A program made the translations under genes and the position numbers. From assembly GCA_029259355.1 (NCBI GenBank), contig JAPDIZ010000003.1:33272-69180 (forward strand): 35,909 bases of DNA. The letters are read 5' to 3'. The DNA comes from Candidatus Bathyarchaeota archaeon (GTDB lineage: Archaea; Thermoproteota; Bathyarchaeia; JAPDIZ01). Of the stretch, positions 3 through 9,467 are shown in pieces. The notes under the pieces were generated by a model. That model was not told where the DNA came from and made no database searches. It was given only the letters and a program-made list of their open reading frames with translations. The stretch's first letter is position 1. Every line of letters starts with the position of its first letter.

Positions 3-404
3 CTAGAGCCACCACCTGCTAAAGTTAAGCGATAAGCGATCATAGCATCTCTCGACAACGACGAGATAAACACCAGGTGACAGGCTATACGCCCCATTTT
101 GTACAGCGTTCTTGGTTCGAATTTGCCTAACCTCGCTCCCAGAGACCACAACAAGCTGGTTCTCCTTTGCAACAACCAAGCAGTTTTTGGGAACAGCAGC
201 TACAAACTCTACTCGCAACCTTCCTCCAGCATCTACCTCCCTAACAGCTAATTCAAGATTATTGGAGAAGTTTTGCAACAGGGGCTCTTGCAAGCACCTC
301 CCGAGATAGTTTGCGTTCTTCACAATCCACGCGCTGAAAAAGAGGAGAAAAACAACCTCAACTAGCGTAACCAAGCCCTTTTCGAGTAGCTGCACCAATC
401 TCAA
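3..404 (-). CDS. Pilin-like small secreted or membrane protein, divergent from the Tad/HerA operon
   Basis: A 133-residue protein that I cannot place in a named family. Residues about 8-28 form one hydrophobic segment just after a Lys-Gly pair (EKGLVTLVEVVF). This resembles an archaeal class III signal peptide: a basic residue and Gly, then a hydrophobic helix with Glu near position +6 of the mature form. The rest is beta-rich and has only two or three Cys. It would sit in the membrane or be assembled as a minor pilin. The start is a TTG that lies about 26 bp downstream of a minus-strand TATA box (431-438), so the mRNA is probably leaderless. It diverges from the secretion ATPase gene across 88 bp, which supports a role in the same machine. 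It could also be an unrelated one-pass membrane protein. Confidence 0.6.
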   Translation of the reverse strand: MRLVQLLEKGLVTLVEVVFLLFFSAWIVKNANYLGRCLQEPLLQNFSNNLELAVREVDAGGRLRVEFVAAVPKNCLVVAKENQLVVVSGSEVRQIRTKNAVQNGAYSLSPGVYLVVVERCYDRLSLNFSRWWL

Positions 405-492: not shown

Positions 493-2343
493 GTGGAAAA
501 AGCGCACAAAGATTTGGGGAAGTACGTGTATCTGGTAAGCAGAGGGATTCGGCCTGCTGAGCAGTTACCGCTGGATCATCCATCGATTGAGCTGCTCGCT
601 GAAGCCGTGAAAATGGCTTTAGCCAAAGTCTCCAACGTCTTTCCAATAGTGGACTATGAGGGCTTAGCAAAGGAAGACGCAAGAATCTTGCGCGACTTGC
701 TAGAAATCTTCCCAAGCCTTGGCCTACTCTATTACAATCCCTCAGAAGCCCTAGATGCGATCAATAGCGGCAAAAGCCAGCTTAAGGGAGTCTTTGGAAA
801 AGAGCTGGTGGCCATAGAAAGGTTGTTGAGGAAAGCTGATAAAGCACTTAAGGAGCTTCCGACAAATTTCGAGAAGGAGCAGGCGAGCATACAGCTCAGC
901 GAACAGAAGAACCTCTTAGACAGGTACTTCGTCCAGCCATTCGTCGTAGAAGTCTTTCACGAGAAAAAGCTAGCTGAGCCTGTGTACATCTCGAAGCTAG
1001 CGAAGTACGCGTACAGGTTTCTAATCACAGACATCTCCATGGCGGTTTCTAAGCTTCTGCCAAAGCAGAAGCCCACGTCGTTTTCCAGAGTTTACGACAG
1101 AGCGTACGCTTGGTCGATGAGCTTCCTAAGGAGAAATTACCACCTGTTGCTTAGACTAGACGAGATGAGAGGCATCTCGCACGTCTCAACTCTCAAGATG
1201 CTTAGGATGAGCAAGCTAGCCCCATTTCTACTAGATGACGCCATAGACGAGTTCTACCTAGATGCTCCCAACACGCCGATCTACCTCGACCACCGTGATT
1301 GGGGGAGGTGTACAAGCAACGTTAGCCTCAAGCCTCGACACGTTGAGTACGTAGCGACGCACCTTCGAAGGAGGAGTGGCTTAAGGCTGGATTGGGACAA
1401 CCCCTCAATCAAAGCAGACCTTGTAACGAACCGATTTCACGTACGCGTCTCTGTCGATAGCGCTCCCCTGGCAGTAGACGGCTATGCGCTTGATGTTAGG
1501 AGGTTGAGGAAGAAGCCATTCACGATAGCAGACCTCGTCAGAAACGAGACGCTCTCCTCTGAAGCCGCAGCTTACGTTCTCTTCTGCCTTATGAGGAGGA
1601 GAAACATAACCATCTTAGGCGAAACAGGATCCGGAAAGACTACGCTGCTCAACGCCTTAGACCTATGTGCACCGAGGTTTTGGAGAAAGATCTACGTCGA
1701 AGACGTTGTCGAAAGTGTTTCCCAGCTGAGGAGAGGGAGACACCAGCTGAGGCTTTTCGTAGAGCCTTTTGAGGCTACAAACCCGAGGAGGAGGAAGTCT
1801 GTCGAGATCGTTAAGTTGCTACATCGAAACCCAGACTACGTAGTGCTCTCCGAACTCCAGACAGAGGAGCATAGCAAGGCGTTTTTCTTCGCGCTAGCTG
1901 CTGGGATAAGAGGCATGCAGACCATTCACGCGGACTCTGTGGATAGACTTGTCAGGAGATGGGTCTTCCACCACGGAATTAATCCGGAGTGTCTGAACGA
2001 CCTAGATCTCTTGATAACTATGAGCAAGTTCTACTTAGGCTCTAAAACCCTCAGGAAGCTAACATCCATATGCGAGATAGAGGAAGTAGACCCTCTAAGA
2101 AAAACCGCTAAGATATCACATACCTTCAAGTGGTGTGCTAACGAATTCCAAGCTAAGAAGAACACCGATTTATTCGAGACTCCGGTGATTCATAAGATAA
2201 GGAAGAGGGAGGGGCTCACCCGACGCGAGTTTTTCGAAGAGCTTGCGAAGTACCAGCGAGCAGTGGAGGTGGCAGCTAGCGGTGTGTGCCGAGAGCCTTT
2301 GCAGAGCCTGCTGGAGAGGGAATTGCTTGGCAAATGGAGGTGA
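493..2343 (+). CDS. TadA/GspE-family secretion (pilus assembly) ATPase
   Basis: A cytoplasmic hexameric ATPase of the type II/IV secretion and archaeal pilus/archaellum family (TadA, FlaI, GspE). Such enzymes drive extension of pilin filaments through a TadC/FlaJ membrane platform. The Walker A motif GETGSGKT is at residues 376-383, the Asp-box-like YVEDVVE follows, a Walker B-like segment YVVLSEL is near 449-455, and the His box TIHA is at 477-480. The roughly 370 residues before Walker A hold the usual N-terminal domain and are long for the family. The GTG start lies just after the predicted start of transcription. The usual Glu-x-Arg after Walker B is Glu-Leu-Gln here, which is odd. The stop overlaps the GGAGGTGA ribosome site of the next gene, so the two are translationally coupled. 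Confidence 0.88.
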   Translation: MEKAHKDLGKYVYLVSRGIRPAEQLPLDHPSIELLAEAVKMALAKVSNVFPIVDYEGLAKEDARILRDLLEIFPSLGLLYYNPSEALDAINSGKSQLKGVFGKELVAIERLLRKADKALKELPTNFEKEQASIQLSEQKNLLDRYFVQPFVVEVFHEKKLAEPVYISKLAKYAYRFLITDISMAVSKLLPKQKPTSFSRVYDRAYAWSMSFLRRNYHLLLRLDEMRGISHVSTLKMLRMSKLAPFLLDDAIDEFYLDAPNTPIYLDHRDWGRCTSNVSLKPRHVEYVATHLRRRSGLRLDWDNPSIKADLVTNRFHVRVSVDSAPLAVDGYALDVRRLRKKPFTIADLVRNETLSSEAAAYVLFCLMRRRNITILGETGSGKTTLLNALDLCAPRFWRKIYVEDVVESVSQLRRGRHQLRLFVEPFEATNPRRRKSVEIVKLLHRNPDYVVLSELQTEEHSKAFFFALAAGIRGMQTIHADSVDRLVRRWVFHHGINPECLNDLDLLITMSKFYLGSKTLRKLTSICEIEEVDPLRKTAKISHTFKWCANEFQAKKNTDLFETPVIHKIRKREGLTRREFFEELAKYQRAVEVAASGVCREPLQSLLERELLGKWR

Positions 2344-2347
2344 GTGT

Positions 2348-2908
2348 TTGCTAAGCAAACTGTTGGGAGCTCTTCGAAAGAACGAGCGGGAGACAGGCCG
2401 CTTTATGTGGAGAAACGCGCTTGCGCTAGACATCATAGAGTTCTTCGGCTACTGCAACCACAACCCCTTCGAGGCTATGAGGATAGCAAGCGAAGCCACT
2501 CAAGGCATTTACTCGAAAGTATTCAGAGAAGCTTACGCTGGTTCATCAAGAGGAGAAGCTCCCGAGAAAAAGCTGCTCAAGATAGCTAGGGAGATGGGAA
2601 TTGACCCCAGCTATAGGCTATTGCTGAGACGGGCTTTGAGCGCTCGCCCGAGAAATCTTGAGAGCGAAAAGCCTTCGTCAGAGCTGTACATACAGGGAGA
2701 GGTTCTTCGACTAAAGAGGGAGATACATAAACTGGAGAGCAAGCTGGTGATTTACATTTTCGCAACGATTCTCGTACCCGTTTGCGCTGTCATCTGCTTG
2801 CTGATGATCAAACCCGTCGAAGGCATACCTCTAATGCTCACACTTCCAATCCTCCACGTGATCGCTTCTAGCATCATCTTGAGGGAGCTGAGAGTTGGCG
2901 AGCTTTGA
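2348..2908 (+). CDS. TadC/FlaJ-like platform protein, first half
   Basis: A 186-residue protein. Residues about 15-100 are helical and resemble a type II secretion F (T2SSF) cytoplasmic domain. A charged, coiled-coil-like stretch follows at 116-132, then two membrane helices at about 134-154 and 160-178. The TTG start was chosen because a strong ribosome site GGAGGTGA (2336-2343) sits four bases upstream; longer reading in this frame runs into the upstream gene. The stop overlaps the start of the next gene by 14 bases. Together the two proteins supply about the size and helix count of one TadC/FlaJ protein. The assignment rests mainly on context and topology, because the sequence is divergent. 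A frameshifted single gene is possible but less likely, since the second gene has its own start and ribosome site. Confidence 0.65.
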   Translation: MLSKLLGALRKNERETGRFMWRNALALDIIEFFGYCNHNPFEAMRIASEATQGIYSKVFREAYAGSSRGEAPEKKLLKIAREMGIDPSYRLLLRRALSARPRNLESEKPSSELYIQGEVLRLKREIHKLESKLVIYIFATILVPVCAVICLLMIKPVEGIPLMLTLPILHVIASSIILRELRVGEL

Positions 2909-3731
2909 GAACTCTGCTACAAGCAAGCCAAGGTTGCGAATCCTCTACGTAGTTATATCGGCGGTAGTAGCGCTAGCGGTCTTGATGCTGCTTGGCAGCA
3001 TAAGCCTCGCTATAGTATCATACGCAGCTACCCTCCTAACGCTTAGCTCGAGAGAAACCGTTCCTCGAGAAAGAGCACACTTTCCACGGCTGCAGGAGGT
3101 ACTTAGAGGTTTTGCAAGAGAACTCTCCAGAGGGTTGAGTCCAGAGCAGGCTTGGGAAAATGCTTCAAGAGAGTTTGGAGCAGATGAAGAGGAGGTCTTT
3201 CGCCGAGCCAACGCCAACCTCATGCGAGGAATCCCGTTCGAGAAGGCAATCTCCCACGTAGGATGCGTAGATGAAGACCAAGAAGCGATCTTGGAGATGG
3301 TGCGCGCTATTTTAGCTAGAAACTCTTTGGAGGCTGGGAGAGTGTTGGAGGCTGTGTTGCGCAGAAACGCGGAGAGACGCTTTCTAAAGGAGGAGATGAG
3401 GTCCGTACTAAAAGCTCTCTGGCATAAGGCGAAAATACTCACAATACTGGCATCGATGACCCTAGGGTGTCTAGTCGGTTTGATCCCCCTCTTAGCGAGC
3501 TACTCGTTAAGCTTATCCGATACCCCCCAAGCCCAAAGCTTGCACAGCGACTTCTTGGCTCACGTATCAGCGGCTATTTCGCTATACTTAATCGCTCTAT
3601 CATCTGCACACTTCAGCCATGAAATGGTCTCTCAGAAAACCCCGCTAAGCTTCTACCTACTCTGCACCTTTGTGTACTGGGGAGCTGCCGTGTTGAGCAC
3701 GCTCACTATAAAGACTATTTCTCCGCTTTGA
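2895..3731 (+). CDS. TadC/FlaJ-like platform protein, second half (T2SSF domain)
   Basis: A 278-residue inner-membrane platform protein expected to bind the secretion ATPase. Helices at about 15-32 and 33-50 are followed by a cytoplasmic T2SSF-type domain (about 60-180). It has the family pattern of helical repeats, seen in the LSRGLSPEQAWENA and LMRGIPFEKAI segments. Three more membrane helices lie at about 181-203, 221-240 and 251-272. The TTG start is preceded by GAGGGAG at 2881-2887 and lies inside the end of the previous gene, so translation is likely coupled. The T2SSF repeats make this half more recognisable than the first. Confidence 0.78.
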   Translation: MASFENSATSKPRLRILYVVISAVVALAVLMLLGSISLAIVSYAATLLTLSSRETVPRERAHFPRLQEVLRGFARELSRGLSPEQAWENASREFGADEEEVFRRANANLMRGIPFEKAISHVGCVDEDQEAILEMVRAILARNSLEAGRVLEAVLRRNAERRFLKEEMRSVLKALWHKAKILTILASMTLGCLVGLIPLLASYSLSLSDTPQAQSLHSDFLAHVSAAISLYLIALSSAHFSHEMVSQKTPLSFYLLCTFVYWGAAVLSTLTIKTISPL

Positions 3732-3773
3732 TGTGGGTGCTTAAATCGGGTAGTGGGCACTTCCTAGCGAGGT

Positions 3774-3968
3774 TTGGTAGAGATGAGACGAAGGAGCAGG
3801 ATCTCAGGCTCTCAGCTCGTGGAAGAAGGTCTCTTGTTATGCCTAGCACTCTTCATGATGACCGTTATCTTAGGAGTTCTTAGCGATGTCACCAACATGA
3901 TAAACAGCTTCTTCGAGCAAGCTATCGAGGAATTCTTCGCGATAGCCCACGGCCTCTTCGGAATTTAG
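3774..3968 (+). CDS. Short pilin-like peptide of the Tad/HerA operon
   Basis: A 64-residue peptide with a basic N-terminus (MRRRSRISG), then SQLVEEGLLL and a hydrophobic helix at about residues 18-40, then a shorter amphipathic helix ending at the C-terminus. If a prepilin peptidase cuts after the Gly, Glu falls at mature position +5, the classic type IV pilin signature. Its size and two-helix form also recall Flp pilins and the short subunits of archaeal conjugation-like pili. It lies between the platform genes and the HerA-like ATPase (15 bases from the latter), so it is the best candidate for the filament subunit. The start is TTG at 3774 or ATG at 3783; neither has a strong ribosome site. 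Confidence 0.65.
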   Translation: MVEMRRRSRISGSQLVEEGLLLCLALFMMTVILGVLSDVTNMINSFFEQAIEEFFAIAHGLFGI

Positions 3969-3983
3969 CGGGGAAACACCCCC

Positions 3984-6188
3984 TTGAACGGGGAGAGGAG
4001 CTTTGTAGACCTTCTGCTTCCCCTGCTGGCGCTAATCCCCATACTTTTTGCTGTTAGAGACCTACTACATGACATCCTAGGAATCGAAGGGTTCTCTCTA
4101 GCGGCGTTTCTCGCTCTCGTGCCAGTTGTTGCAGCAGCGCTGGTGATAGCATCGCACGCAGCAAAAAGCGGGGGAAGAAGTTTGCGCATCATCCCCGACA
4201 TTAGCGCCCTCGCAGCAATTCTCAGGAGGTGGAAAGCTCCTCACCCACACATATCCGTAGATTTCGAGAGAGGAGAGATAGCGATGCGATCTCCCAGCGG
4301 AGAAGCCGTCTCCATAGCTCTGCTAGAGGTTGAGGACAAAGCCGTGGCAGCGAGCAGAGACTTCCGCGAGCCAACGGATACGGAGAAGATGCAGAGGCTT
4401 AGCAGATTCTTCCATAGCCTTCAACGGAGCAACATACCCTTTGCGTATCTGCTGATAGCTAGCCCAACCGACAAAAGCGAGGAAATCGCTAGCGGAAGGC
4501 TCCTAATAGCTACTTGGGCATCTGACGCTGAGGGGTTTGAGAAAGCTTCGGCAAAGCTTGAGACCAACATCGCGAAGCTTGAGAGTTCCTTCTTCGCAAC
4601 GTTTCCTGACCTAGGGTTGGAGAGAGTTAAAGGCCTTAGGCTCTTCGAAGTGGTTCAGGATCCGGTCATGTCGCTACGCAGAGGAAGACTAGGCTTCTCC
4701 CTAGACCACCTCTCGACGTTAGGAAATATCTTCAGCAAGCCCATGCTCTCAGATGCCAAGGTTGTGGAGCCCAACTTTGAGCTCCCCGCGCCAAAGTTGG
4801 TGTCTGAAGAGGGCCCTCTCTTGGGCTACGCCCTCCACAGAGGACAGGAGATATATCCGGTTAGGATAGCGCTCGAAGATCTCAAGACTCACGCCGTAAT
4901 CTTTGGTGCCACGGGCACGGGTAAGTCTACCACAGCTTCTACGCTAGTAAAAGGCCTCGTCGACATGGGCATCCCCGTATTGGTCATAGACTGGCACAGC
5001 GAATACAGGAGCTTGATGCTCGATTTGAACGGCCTAGTCTTCACACCGGGGAAACAGGTCTCGGAGCTAGTTATAAACGTCCTCGACCCTGCGCTCTCTC
5101 AAGACTTGGTGGAGCACATCAGCTTGGTCACCGATATCTTCTCCGACATCTTCGGCTTCACAGCTCCTCAGAGCTTCATGTTTAGGGAAGCTTTGAGAAA
5201 AGTCTACGAGAAAAGCGGCTACTTCAGCGGGAGGAGGGGAACACCTCCAACGCTCTCTGAGCTGGTGCAGCAGATTGAGCGCACACCATCCCGATCTGTC
5301 TACGATAACGAGATCAAGCTCGCGCTGCTCAGAAGGCTCAAGCCCCTTGTCGAAGGCCAAGCTGGTCGAGCACTCAATGGCCAATCCACTATATCGGTGG
5401 AAGAGCTCTTTGGAAAACCCGTATCAATCGAACTCGGCCACTTCAAGGAAGAGTCTGTGAGGGCTATGTTCACCAACATTCTCTTAAAAATGCTGTTCGA
5501 CTACAGATCCTCTAGACACACAGAGAAACTCACGCACGTGACCGTGGTAGAAGAAGCTAGGCATGTAGTGCCCTTTAGGAGGCCGGAGGACCCTCCCCAC
5601 ATCGCTGAGAGAATGGTTGGAGAATTGAGGAAGTACGGCGAAGGCATGATCTTCGTATGCCAGTTTCCAAGCCAGATTTCGCCAGAGATTTTGAAGAATT
5701 CCTCAACACGAATAGTTCACGCTATAAGGACGGATGACGATAGAAGGGTTTTGAGTGGTGCGCTGGGGCTAACCCAAGCCCAAGCAGATTACATCCGCAA
5801 GCTAGAGGTGGGGAAGGCTGTGGTGCTGATGCCCAAAGTCCCAAGTCCGTTTCCAGTAAAGGTTTTGATGATGCACGATGGAGGGCCAGTGGACGATGCT
5901 CTTCTGAAGAAGGTTATGTCAAAGCGCCTCCACAAGCCTGTGGACAGAGTAGCTGCTGAAGAGAAGCTAAAGTTCTCCACAGCTCTCTTGCAGAAGATTA
6001 TAGCGATTCTGAAGAACAGCTCTCGCCCACTTACGCTGGAGGAGATAGCGCTAGCGTGCGGCTCCACAAGCCAGAACGACGTAGCCCTCGTTGAGAAAGC
6101 TGTCGAGAGATTGGTTGAGAACGGCGCTGTCGAGCTGCTGCAAGGTGAGGAAGCTACTTACTATCGGCTCTCCGAAGCTCCTCCTTGA
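3984..6188 (+). CDS. Membrane-anchored HerA/VirB4-like ATPase
   Basis: A 734-residue P-loop ATPase of the HerA/FtsK/VirB4 class, which moves DNA or drives conjugation-type secretion. Two N-terminal membrane helices (about 7-24 and 36-60) are followed by a linker of about 200 residues. The motor has Walker A GATGTGKS at 308-315, Walker B VTVVEEAR with Glu 523-524, and the HerA-like segment TRIVHAIRTDDDRR downstream. A winged-helix-like tail (about 665-734) could bind DNA. Cytosolic HerA that works with NurA in end resection lacks membrane helices. The anchored form resembles CedB of the archaeal DNA-import system, so a DNA-transport role is inferred. The TTG start lies 15 bases after the pilin-like gene. 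The 3' end overlaps the convergent zinc-ribbon gene by 35 bases. Confidence 0.82.
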   Translation: MNGERSFVDLLLPLLALIPILFAVRDLLHDILGIEGFSLAAFLALVPVVAAALVIASHAAKSGGRSLRIIPDISALAAILRRWKAPHPHISVDFERGEIAMRSPSGEAVSIALLEVEDKAVAASRDFREPTDTEKMQRLSRFFHSLQRSNIPFAYLLIASPTDKSEEIASGRLLIATWASDAEGFEKASAKLETNIAKLESSFFATFPDLGLERVKGLRLFEVVQDPVMSLRRGRLGFSLDHLSTLGNIFSKPMLSDAKVVEPNFELPAPKLVSEEGPLLGYALHRGQEIYPVRIALEDLKTHAVIFGATGTGKSTTASTLVKGLVDMGIPVLVIDWHSEYRSLMLDLNGLVFTPGKQVSELVINVLDPALSQDLVEHISLVTDIFSDIFGFTAPQSFMFREALRKVYEKSGYFSGRRGTPPTLSELVQQIERTPSRSVYDNEIKLALLRRLKPLVEGQAGRALNGQSTISVEELFGKPVSIELGHFKEESVRAMFTNILLKMLFDYRSSRHTEKLTHVTVVEEARHVVPFRRPEDPPHIAERMVGELRKYGEGMIFVCQFPSQISPEILKNSSTRIVHAIRTDDDRRVLSGALGLTQAQADYIRKLEVGKAVVLMPKVPSPFPVKVLMMHDGGPVDDALLKKVMSKRLHKPVDRVAAEEKLKFSTALLQKIIAILKNSSRPLTLEEIALACGSTSQNDVALVEKAVERLVENGAVELLQGEEATYYRLSEAPP

Positions 6189-6399: not shown

Positions 6400-6422
6400 T
6401 TAGTGGGAGCTACGCCTTGTCT

Positions 6423-6764
6423 ATGAACAATGAAGAGCTTACGCAGCTAATAATGGAATACTTTCTCCTAAGAGGATACCAGTTGGAAAAAGACGTATTC
6501 GTAGAGGGCAAGACGGGAACCGTTTACAAGTTCGACTTTGTGGCTAAGAAGAAGGACTCTGCGCTACCCATCATAGTAAAGAACTGGAACCGTACGGTCG
6601 GAATCAACGTAGTGATCGACGCTGACAGAGCGGCTGAGGACACCAACATGTCGAAGCCAATACTCATTGGTTGGAGGTTTAGCGATCACGCAAAGTCGTA
6701 TGCGAACAGAATGGGCATCACGCTGATAAGCATATCAGAGATTCGGAAAGAAGTTAGGCCTTAG
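6423..6764 (+). CDS. Small restriction-endonuclease-like (PD-(D/E)XK fold) protein
   Basis: A 113-residue protein with an N-terminal helix, the strand pair VYKFDFVAKKK, a second strand PIIVKNW, and the C-terminal pattern ANRMGITLISI. This resembles the archaeal Mrr/RecB-like nuclease fold, where the sites are (D/E)...D...(E/Q)xK. Asp in FDFVA and Lys in IVKNW fit, but the residue two before the Lys is Ile rather than Glu or Gln, so catalysis is doubtful. The ATG at 6423 was chosen over the TTG at 6417 because it lies 27 bp from the TATA box. The 3' end overlaps the convergent kinase gene by 11 bases. It may be a structural relative that binds DNA without cutting. Confidence 0.6.
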   Translation: MNNEELTQLIMEYFLLRGYQLEKDVFVEGKTGTVYKFDFVAKKKDSALPIIVKNWNRTVGINVVIDADRAAEDTNMSKPILIGWRFSDHAKSYANRMGITLISISEIRKEVRP

Positions 6765-7350
6765 CAAGTCTACTCAAAACTTGATCGAGCACTCCTTTTT
6801 GCTCCAAACAAGTCACCCAATCAACAACCCTCAACCTCCCAAACACGCCCCTCCTTACAGCAATGACCATCTCGGACGCTACATCCTCTGGAGACCTGTC
6901 CGTGCAGTCTATTTCGTAGAGAATATTTCTCCCAAAGGCCTCCAAAGCCTCGACCAAGCATACGTCGAGGAGCTCAGCCTCTACGTTTTCCCAAACCTTC
7001 TCCTCAGAGTAGCCGCGACCACGAAGCACCTCCACAAGCTCCAATGGGCATCTCCTCAACACAAAGACAACTCTCACCTCAAAGCCCTTGACAACGTGCT
7101 GAGCTAAGTGCGATTCCGCAACTACTACGGAGTGCTTCCTCAACAAACCCCCGACTTCTTCCGAAAGCTTTTGGCGCAGCGCATCAACATCTACCACAAA
7201 CGTCTTCCGATGCTCGTCATAGTCCACTACGAGATCGTTCTCTAGGGCAAATTTGTTGATGTCTATGTAAACGCCCCCCAGCTTCTCAGCTAAAAGCGAA
7301 GAAGCAGCTGTCTTCCCTACGCCAGGTGTTCCAGTCACCACAACGAGCAA
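6754..7350 (-). CDS. AK6/Fap7-type adenylate kinase (ribosome biogenesis NTPase)
   Basis: A 198-residue P-loop kinase of the AK6/hCINAP/Fap7 family. These proteins have adenylate kinase activity and, in eukaryotes and archaea, help the small ribosomal subunit mature by acting on uS11. Walker A GTPGVGKT is at residues 7-14. The DINKFA segment and the (V/A)DVDAL region follow as in the family, and the lid lies near RRCPLELVEVLRGRGY. The TTG start at 7350 was chosen because AGGAG (7358-7362) is seven bases upstream; any longer reading runs into the tRNA-Leu gene. Only 14 bases separate the start from the tRNA 3' CCA, so it is probably co-transcribed with that tRNA. The C-terminus is longer than in minimal family members. 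Confidence 0.85.
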   Translation of the reverse strand: MLVVVTGTPGVGKTAASSLLAEKLGGVYIDINKFALENDLVVDYDEHRKTFVVDVDALRQKLSEEVGGLLRKHSVVVAESHLAQHVVKGFEVRVVFVLRRCPLELVEVLRGRGYSEEKVWENVEAELLDVCLVEALEAFGRNILYEIDCTDRSPEDVASEMVIAVRRGVFGRLRVVDWVTCLEQKGVLDQVLSRLAKA

Positions 7351-7364
7351 CTTTTTGCTCCTAG

Positions 7365-7452
7365 TGGTGCGGGGGGTGGGATTTGAACCCACGAAGGCCT
7401 ACGCCATAGCGGCCTCAGCGCTACCCCTTTGACCTGACTCGGGAACCCCCGC
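7365..7452 (-). tRNA. tRNA-Leu(GAG)
   Basis: A class II tRNA, 88 bases including an encoded CCA. The acceptor GCGGGGG pairs with CCCCCGC, discriminator A. The anticodon stem TAGCG/CGCTA encloses loop CTGAGGC, which gives anticodon GAG. The long variable arm is GGC...GCC and the T arm is GTGGG/CCCAC. No intron. A TATA-like box (AGTTAAAATT, about 7479-7489) lies about 30 bp upstream, so it has its own promoter. Outside the anticodon arm it is identical to the tRNA-Leu(TAG) at 16036. Confidence 0.96.
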
Positions 7453-8313: not shown

Positions 8314-9324
8314 TCAAAATCTGCCCAACGGTTTAAATCTTTTAGTTAGGTGCTCCCAGCCAATAGGCTCGATAGGAGTGGGGGGGCTTCCCTCAAGCTC
8401 TAGCCAAACACCTTCTCCGCTCTCAACACATCCGATCTTCACGAGGGAGCCACCGACGCTTTCCACAGCCTTGAGCGCATCTTCCCACCTATCTTCCTTG
8501 ATGGCGTAGACGAGCTCGTACTCGTCTCCCCCATACAGCACGAGATTCCTCACATCAAGCTCTTCGCGCTTCGGGAGCTTCTCGACTATTGGATGAGTGG
8601 GTAGCGCCGTGATCTTAATGGCTACTCCGCTTCTCCTAGCTATCTCGTGGAGAGACCAAGCCAAGCCATCGGAGCAGTCGATGGAGGCTGAGGCAGCGCC
8701 TGACTCGGCTATTGCTATACCCTCTCTCAGCCTAGCTTGAGGCGCATAGACCAGTTTCTTTACCTCTTCCAAGACATCTTCAGGGATTTGGTAGCCGTTT
8801 AGTAGAGCCAGAAATGCTAGCGCGGTGTGGCCGAAGTATCCCGTAGTAGCTACGATGTCCCCCGGCTTTGCCCCACTCCTCGGCACGATGCACTTTCGAT
8901 CGATGGTTCCTATGCAGAAGCCTGCTAAGAAGAAGGTGTTTGAGAACTCTGTGTCTCCTCCGAGGACGCGTATCCCATACTCCTTGGTCGCTGAGTTTAT
9001 GCCCCTAGCCACCTCGCTTATAACCACGGTCTCCGTATCTGGGGGGATCCCCCAAGACACCAACATCCCAACCGGCTTCGCTCCCTTCGCCGCGAGATCG
9101 CTAATGTTAGCAACAACCAGCTTTTTGCCAAGTTGGTCATAGGACATTCCGGGAAGAAGGTCGCTTTCCACCGTTACGCAGTCTGTATGGAAAACCACAC
9201 ATGAATCTCCGATGAGCTTCGCAGCGACATCGTCTCCGATACCGAGCAGCTCCTCTACGTCTTTCTCAAGCTCTCGAGCAATGAGCTCGATGATCCCTCG
9301 CTCACCAATGTCTATCGCTCTCAT
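8314..9324 (-). CDS. thiL: Thiamine-monophosphate kinase
   Basis: A 336-residue member of the PurM/ThiL ATP-grasp-like fold that phosphorylates thiamine monophosphate to the diphosphate, the active cofactor. Visible family motifs are GIGDDVAA at the N-terminus (nucleotide and metal binding), HTDCV, LVVANISDLAAKGAKP, GGDTEFS, ASIDCSDGLAWSL and YGGDEYELV. Its length is normal for ThiL. The ATG at 9324 follows AAGGGTG and begins the conserved N-terminus; reading further upstream would translate the tRNA-Arg gene. Only 13 bases separate the start from the tRNA CCA end, so the gene probably relies on the tRNA promoter. Confidence 0.94.
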   Translation of the reverse strand: MRAIDIGERGIIELIARELEKDVEELLGIGDDVAAKLIGDSCVVFHTDCVTVESDLLPGMSYDQLGKKLVVANISDLAAKGAKPVGMLVSWGIPPDTETVVISEVARGINSATKEYGIRVLGGDTEFSNTFFLAGFCIGTIDRKCIVPRSGAKPGDIVATTGYFGHTALAFLALLNGYQIPEDVLEEVKKLVYAPQARLREGIAIAESGAASASIDCSDGLAWSLHEIARRSGVAIKITALPTHPIVEKLPKREELDVRNLVLYGGDEYELVYAIKEDRWEDALKAVESVGGSLVKIGCVESGEGVWLELEGSPPTPIEPIGWEHLTKRFKPLGRF

Positions 9325-9337
9325 GGCAACACCCTTT

Positions 9338-9426
<89 letters not shown>

Positions 9427-9467
9427 AAGCAAGAATATTGGGGGTGGGGATCGACTTTTAAACTTCA

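Follow-up and report, generated by a model that had tools for sequence, protein, structure and literature searches.

In a stretch of 35,909 nucleotides from a Candidatus Bathyarchaeota archaeon (contig JAPDIZ010000003.1, positions 33,272 to 69,180; the whole stretch is hereafter the window), five plus-strand genes at positions 493-6188 combine the parts of a Tad-type pilus with a membrane-anchored ATPase related to CedD of the archaeal Ced DNA importer. This locus is explained best, with a confidence somewhat above even, as a single-locus, pilus-based machine for DNA transfer, most likely importing, and probably the ancestral home of CedD. The wider proposal, put forward more tentatively, is that it represents an ancient and previously undescribed class of archaeal DNA-transfer systems, in which a Tad/Epd-like pilus and a CedD-type motor share one operon, and which would predate Ced in the phylum, Ced having arisen when CedD lost the pilus and joined CedA and CedB. 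A CedD-like motor in a pilus operon was found described neither in the available parts of the type IV pilus census (PMC4858521) and of the CedD paper (PMC11868833), nor in other Ced/Ted literature or in full-text searches, a scope outside which subscription papers and preprints lay. If the proposal is right, type IV pili and the Ced importer, so far treated as separate, would be joined through one conserved locus offering an origin for CedD, many poorly known archaea would exchange DNA through a mini-pilus, and the evolution of archaeal DNA exchange would become testable.

The genes follow each other in the order TadA-like, TadC1, TadC2, pilin and HerA-superfamily ATPase, with gaps or overlaps of +4, -14, +42 and +15 bp, respectively. 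A previous sequence-only reading of this DNA had described five plus-strand genes with gaps or overlaps of at most 42 bp, and the open reading frames (ORFs), coordinates and strands were all confirmed. Its assignment of a TadA-like ATPase, two TadC-like proteins, a pilin-like peptide of 64 residues and an anchored HerA-like ATPase likewise agrees with the domain matches, the transmembrane (TM) segments and the homologs found:

493 to 2343, plus strand: TadA/CpaF-like pilus assembly ATPase, 616 amino acids (PF00437, E 3e-14).
2348 to 2908, plus strand: TadC1, short platform protein with a single T2SSF domain, 186 amino acids, two TM segments (PF00482, E 0.011).
2895 to 3731, plus strand: TadC2, platform protein with a single T2SSF domain, 278 amino acids, about four TM segments (PF00482, E 1e-4).
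3783 to 3968, plus strand: Flp-like mini-pilin, 61 amino acids from the ATG at 3783 or 64 from the TTG at 3774, one TM segment.
3984 to 6188, plus strand: CedD-like membrane-anchored HerA-superfamily ATPase, 734 amino acids (DUF87, E 4e-20).

The PDB relatives of the locus TadA are FlaI and CpaF. TadC1 starts at a TTG (2348) lying 4 bp past the TadA stop, in a frame open from 2243, and has counterparts at the equivalent position in other loci (187-188 amino acids in L080-L082). The PF00482 matches of both platform proteins are weak, each alone falling under the curated cut-off, and the tandem is conserved in most loci. The ATPase is composed of two N-terminal TM segments, a divergent N-terminal domain (NTD), an ATPase domain at about residues 281-627 and an extra C-terminal tail; its Walker A motif is GATGTGKS, and the motor residues are invariant in the alignment (A3).

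Conservation of this arrangement was observed at two scales. Within the group, 60 relatives were compared, all of the same class as the source genome (G000) and from outside its order, and a single member of the class, genome G002 of another family, encodes an ATPase closely related to that of the window (48-51% identity). All five genes recur in the G002 locus with order and strand unchanged, followed by genes for an Mrr-like protein and AK6; the split of its CedD-like gene was ruled out as biology, being due to an assembly N-run. Across the phylum, a CedD-like match at E<=1e-25 was found in 113 of the 398 genomes sampled. Among 50 regions examined, 15 families (f1, f3, f30, f31, f32, f33, f41, f47, f51, f52, f56, f59, f60, f64 and f71) show the order TadA-TadC1-TadC2-pilin-ATPase with every gene on the same strand, a count which includes loci at contig ends, loci with diverged TadC and, in f31 and f52, loci with TadA on another contig. 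Families f49 and f55 also carry the order, which thus recurs in at least 17 families of the Thermoproteota. Since order and strand are repeated in G002 and in these further families, chance does not account for them, and the arrangement, previously taken for a hybrid of borrowed parts, is better read as old and vertically kept than as recent. In the unsplit cases the start of the ATPase gene ranges from 16 bp before the end of the pilin gene to 27 bp past it, the overlap often being of 1-16 bp. A short ATPase ORF, preceded by a spacer of 0.5-1.1 kb, occurs in families f33, f51, f59 and f64, the spacer containing in f51, f59 and f64 a separate TM/NTD-like ORF; at L069, L085, L087 and L093 the CedD-like protein appears divided over two ORFs, one for its TM/N-terminal portion and one for its ATPase portion. 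Short CedD-like genes distant from the pilus genes occur in f48, f67, f70 and f77.

The pilus ATPase belongs to a distinct clade specific to these loci. In a tree of type IV pilus ATPases built with rows from genomes of this phylum (13 genomes sampled), the TadA proteins of the locus all fall together in a single clade (SH-aLRT 100), to which none of the other pilus ATPases belongs. The idea that the locus TadA persists elsewhere in Ced-lineage genomes as the ATPase of another pilus, such as Ups, was rejected, as no other type IV pilus ATPase in the tree enters this clade. A locus-TadA profile separated the 398 genomes sharply: 59 scored at least 344 bits, one scored 283 and the remainder at most 244. 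A CedD-like match at E<=1e-25 is also present in 42 of the 59, and in three more (G322, G449 and G350) a diverged CedD-like gene lies within the operon.

The strongest new evidence is synteny: CedD occupies the same chromosomal place in other lineages, in different company. With > and < giving gene direction, the pilus-locus slot reads arcTGT< Lsm< TFB> minor pilins< TadA> TadC> TadC> pilin> ATPase> AK6< thermosome< RpS17e>, while the Ced-lineage slot reads arcTGT< Lsm< CedD> AK6< thermosome< RpS17e>, TFB and the pilus genes being missing in between. A lineage is here called a Ced lineage when CedA or CedB-like matches are present, or when CedD stands alone at the slot. Such slots were examined in families f28, f37, f40, f42, f57, f68, f74 and f75, and also in Tiamatella (L029), a named record of the Acidilobaceae. 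They vary locally, certain flanking genes being absent or relocated, chiefly in f37 and f42; f42 has a zinc-ribbon-only, TFB3-like TFB after the thermosome gene. The CedA profile found matches in all nine Ced-lineage genomes searched. Only the two f42 genomes gave CedB scores above the curated cut-off, with weaker matches in f28, f40, f45, f57, f74 and f75 and a weak one in the pilus-locus genome G260; none was found in G000 or G002. The slot and the distribution of CedA (for the pilus-locus genomes, see below) therefore indicate that a CedD-type motor has a Tad/Epd-like pilus as its partner in one group of genomes and CedA/CedB in the other.

As regards the identity of the anchored ATPase, the top-scoring NCBIfam family is CedD (NF053655, 190 bits, E 6e-56), HerA scoring 69 bits, and the membrane anchor is retained in most loci despite the diverging NTD. 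The source genome has a HerA of its own in a NurA-HerA-Mre11-Rad50 operon, and HerA forms a separate clade in the ATPase tree (support 100/97), outside which the anchored ATPase, with its TM segments, is placed. The candidate of a NurA-HerA helicase was thus discarded. Of the two outcomes named as refuting the sequence-only reading, a grouping of the ATPase with cytosolic HerA beside NurA and an order that is not conserved elsewhere, neither occurred. The comparison with CedB made in that reading had to be replaced by one with CedD, since CedB is a separate clade too (100/100) and CedD gives the best score. In the window and in G002 the C-terminal tail of the ATPase exceeds 100 residues and is longer than in other loci. 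The AlphaFold model, built from a two-row alignment, is unusable (pLDDT 43) save for a hint that this tail is folded, its last 75 or so residues resembling, as modelled (pLDDT about 80), a winged-helix domain. A second membrane-anchored HerA/VirB4-like ATPase of 1009 amino acids is encoded in a mobile-looking region of the source genome (L031:6104-9133, G000:C6), with a counterpart of 880 amino acids in G002 (L032:9404-12046).

Type IV pilins are recognised by G or A at position -1 and by Glu5, and Flp pilins are of a length comparable to that of the mini-pilin. The latter gave no match by itself in the domain library search, and its profile gave only chance matches in the PDB, so that the pilin call is founded on a 26-member family with the pattern [G/A]|[S/A][Q/P]L[V/I/L]EEG[L/M], the predicted cleavage in the window being RISG|SQLVEEGLLL. 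In the 20-row alignment (A4), with residues counted from the predicted cleavage site, L3, E5 and E6 are invariant and G7 nearly so, while position -1 is mostly G or A, with C in one family. One A24 prepilin peptidase was found in the source genome, away from the locus (C2:294006). In family f51 the peptidase gene lies inside the divergent minor-pilin operon (L085:2903-3472; G330:C4:24579-24911), and this locus is a self-sufficient Tad-like set.

The DNA-transfer reading is drawn from these observations together: the order is kept in so many families, the pilin and ATPase genes in most cases lying side by side or sharing a few bp; CedD is the best named family for the ATPase and holds the same slot in Ced lineages; CedA was found in the Ced-lineage genomes searched and in none of the pilus-locus genomes; the pilin bears the E5 signature; and the TFB gene beside the pilus genes recalls the TFB3 near CedD in Saccharolobus. 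In addition, CedD is essential for DNA import, and not for export, in Saccharolobus (PMC11868833), and a Flp/Tad pilus is required for the natural transformation of Micrococcus luteus (PMC6370729). It is by analogy with these two cases that we infer DNA to be the substrate and its transfer to be inward; the earlier suggestion of a pilus taking up or exporting DNA gains support in the same way, through kinship with CedD. In the mechanism envisaged, the Flp-like mini-pilin would be cleaved by the prepilin peptidase encoded elsewhere in the genome and polymerised by TadA on the TadC1/TadC2 platform, TadA perhaps also withdrawing the filament, with the divergent minor pilins forming its tip or priming its assembly. 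Contact with DNA or with a partner cell would be made by this filament, and the CedD-like ATPase in the membrane, presumably a hexamer, would translocate DNA across the membrane through a putative channel, most likely inward as CedD does, the imported DNA serving recombinational repair. In the Ced-bearing lineages, the pilus genes would have left the slot and CedD would have come to work with CedA and CedB.

Several results weigh against this interpretation. The CedD match, at 190 bits, lies below the equivalog cut-off of 600 bits and covers the ATPase half only. The NTD gave no match to that of CedD (hhalign probability 2%), and profile searches with it revealed no similarity to the NTD of VirB4. 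In the ATPase tree, the proteins linked to type IV pili join the CedD and VirB4-like rows at a modest support of 80/61, and approximately unbiased (AU) tests rejected neither the forcing of these proteins with HerA (p 0.17) nor with CedB (p 0.11); therefore, the tree alone is not decisive. As to the channel, the CedA profile found no match in any of 19 pilus-locus genomes, and ComEC (PF03772) was found in none of 22 genomes searched, 10 bacterial control genomes being positive. Finally, families f46, f54 and f66 keep the TadA-TadC-pilin genes at this slot and lack a CedD-like gene, and in f63 any CedD-like match is very weak at best, which means that the modules are separable and that their coupling is not obligatory. 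In loci L201, L203, L206, L214, L199, L204 and L205 of families f46, f54 and f66, AK6 directly follows the pilin, and they can be regarded as natural knock-outs of the motor.

The failure to find a channel gene leads to the rival explanation that survives best, although it is considered unlikely, namely that the CedD-like ATPase works on the pilus instead of on DNA, as a second motor for retraction or for extraction of pilins from the membrane, much as VirB4 assists pilus biogenesis in type IV secretion, the pilus serving for adhesion or aggregation. The direct coupling of ATPase and pilin genes, often overlapping, would fit such a role, and a retraction motor could be wanted, given that archaea lack PilT (PMC4858521). 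Nevertheless, the closest named relatives of the ATPase, CedD and HerA, are DNA motors, and in Ced lineages CedD lies at the same slot in the company of no pilus genes and is needed for DNA import. Moreover, bacterial TadA/CpaF drives both extension and retraction (PMC12019362).

Somewhat less probable still is that the pilus is an ordinary adhesive one of the Epd/Tad-like type, the HerA-like gene encoding a repair or DNA-processing motor which is merely co-transcribed or neighbouring. It is true that the slot consists of housekeeping genes (TGT, Lsm, AK6 and thermosome) and that one module occurs without the other in several families. Yet both genes stay on one strand with a gap of at most 27 bp in the unsplit cases, an arrangement that persists in at least 17 families even as the flanking genes and the minor pilins vary; the membrane anchor is kept in most loci although the NTD diverges, and the housekeeping HerA is encoded separately. 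Lastly, a conjugative mobile element (an integrated plasmid or an integrative and conjugative element) with borrowed type IV parts, a conjugation-like option also raised by the sequence-only reading, is very improbable, for despite the related VirB4-like ATPases in mobile-looking regions of the same class (L031 and L032), many families have the locus at one fixed place in the chromosome, between the same neighbours, no integrase or relaxase was seen beside it, the gene trees cluster the rows of one family, and a viral-contig scan yielded no relative.

Around the pilus locus, three further genes were assigned:

3 to 404, minus strand: minor-pilin-like protein with a single TM segment, at the head of a divergent minor-pilin operon (from sequence and TM prediction).
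6417 to 6764, plus strand: small Mrr-like protein of PD-(D/E)XK fold (PF04471, E 5e-9).
6754 to 7392, minus strand: AK6/Fap7-like adenylate kinase, a conserved downstream flank that marks the slot and lies outside the machine.

The divergent minor-pilin operon, overlooked in the earlier reading, starts at 404, and its single-TM genes, all on the minus strand, extend past the upstream edge of the window (L005 10462-12287); divergent single-TM genes are found at the equivalent place in L071, L080, L085 and L093. Beyond them, upstream, come a divergent TFB gene, then Lsm and then arcTGT. A divergent TFB gene stands beside the pilus genes at L005:9374-10465 and in 17 other loci, additional to the canonical TFBs elsewhere in the genome, and is possibly a dedicated regulator. 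In this respect it echoes the TFB3 near CedD in Saccharolobus: in S. islandicus, CedD is SiRe_1715 (PMC11868833) and Tfb3 is SiRe_1717 (PMC10470591), two locus tags apart.

Downstream of the operon there are a small zinc-ribbon ORF, the Mrr-like gene and the AK6-like gene, the last of which adjoins the majority of the loci inspected, whether or not they contain pilus genes. Mrr-like proteins accompany the locus in two or three genomes (window 6417-6764; L030:11817-12245, directly after the operon in G002; and L211:9440-9829), a homolog lying near TadA in G260. In those of the window and L030, D and K are kept and I/M-V replaces the usual (E/Q)-x before K; the protein may possibly be an accessory to the operon. 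A conserved small soluble gene directly 5' of tadA in other loci (L030:19014-19484, L069:2763-3233, L078:3381-3842, L083:1765-2289 and L093:3998-4396), absent in the window, could possibly encode a TadA helper. Farther along the window, the ORF ending at 8314 has an upstream extension (about 9360-9450) resembling a translated tRNA (VAQLDSASAFYASETAGGRGFESRR), and therefore its real start is probably further in.

Among known systems, Epd-like and Tad systems possess two single-domain platform genes and a short pilin (PMC6668835), and with Epd-like and Tad (Flp) pili the locus shares two single-T2SSF platforms, a short E5 pilin, a TadA-type ATPase, single-TM minor pilins and, in f51, an A24 peptidase. 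It differs from them in that no secretin or TadZ was seen beside it, and in carrying a CedD-like motor and a TFB. The Ups pili of Sulfolobales are type IV pili working together with a Ced-type DNA importer, both being under DNA-damage control with TFB3 (PMC11868833 and PMC10470591); however, in f42, whose genomes have CedA together with full CedB, the type IV pilus ATPases placed in the tree are not members of the locus TadA clade, and the CedD slot has no pilus genes. NurA-linked HerA shares the ATPase superfamily (PF01935) with the operon ATPase and differs from it in its own clade and in the TM segments. With CedD the operon ATPase has in common the HerA-superfamily ATPase domain, the N-terminal TM domain and the slot between Lsm and AK6/thermosome, while its sub-cut-off score, its divergent NTD, its place in a pilus operon and its genomes, in which neither CedA nor full CedB was detected, set it apart. 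CedB and TedB/VirB4 are likewise membrane-associated DNA motors of the FtsK-HerA superfamily, with a role like that in type IV secretion systems.

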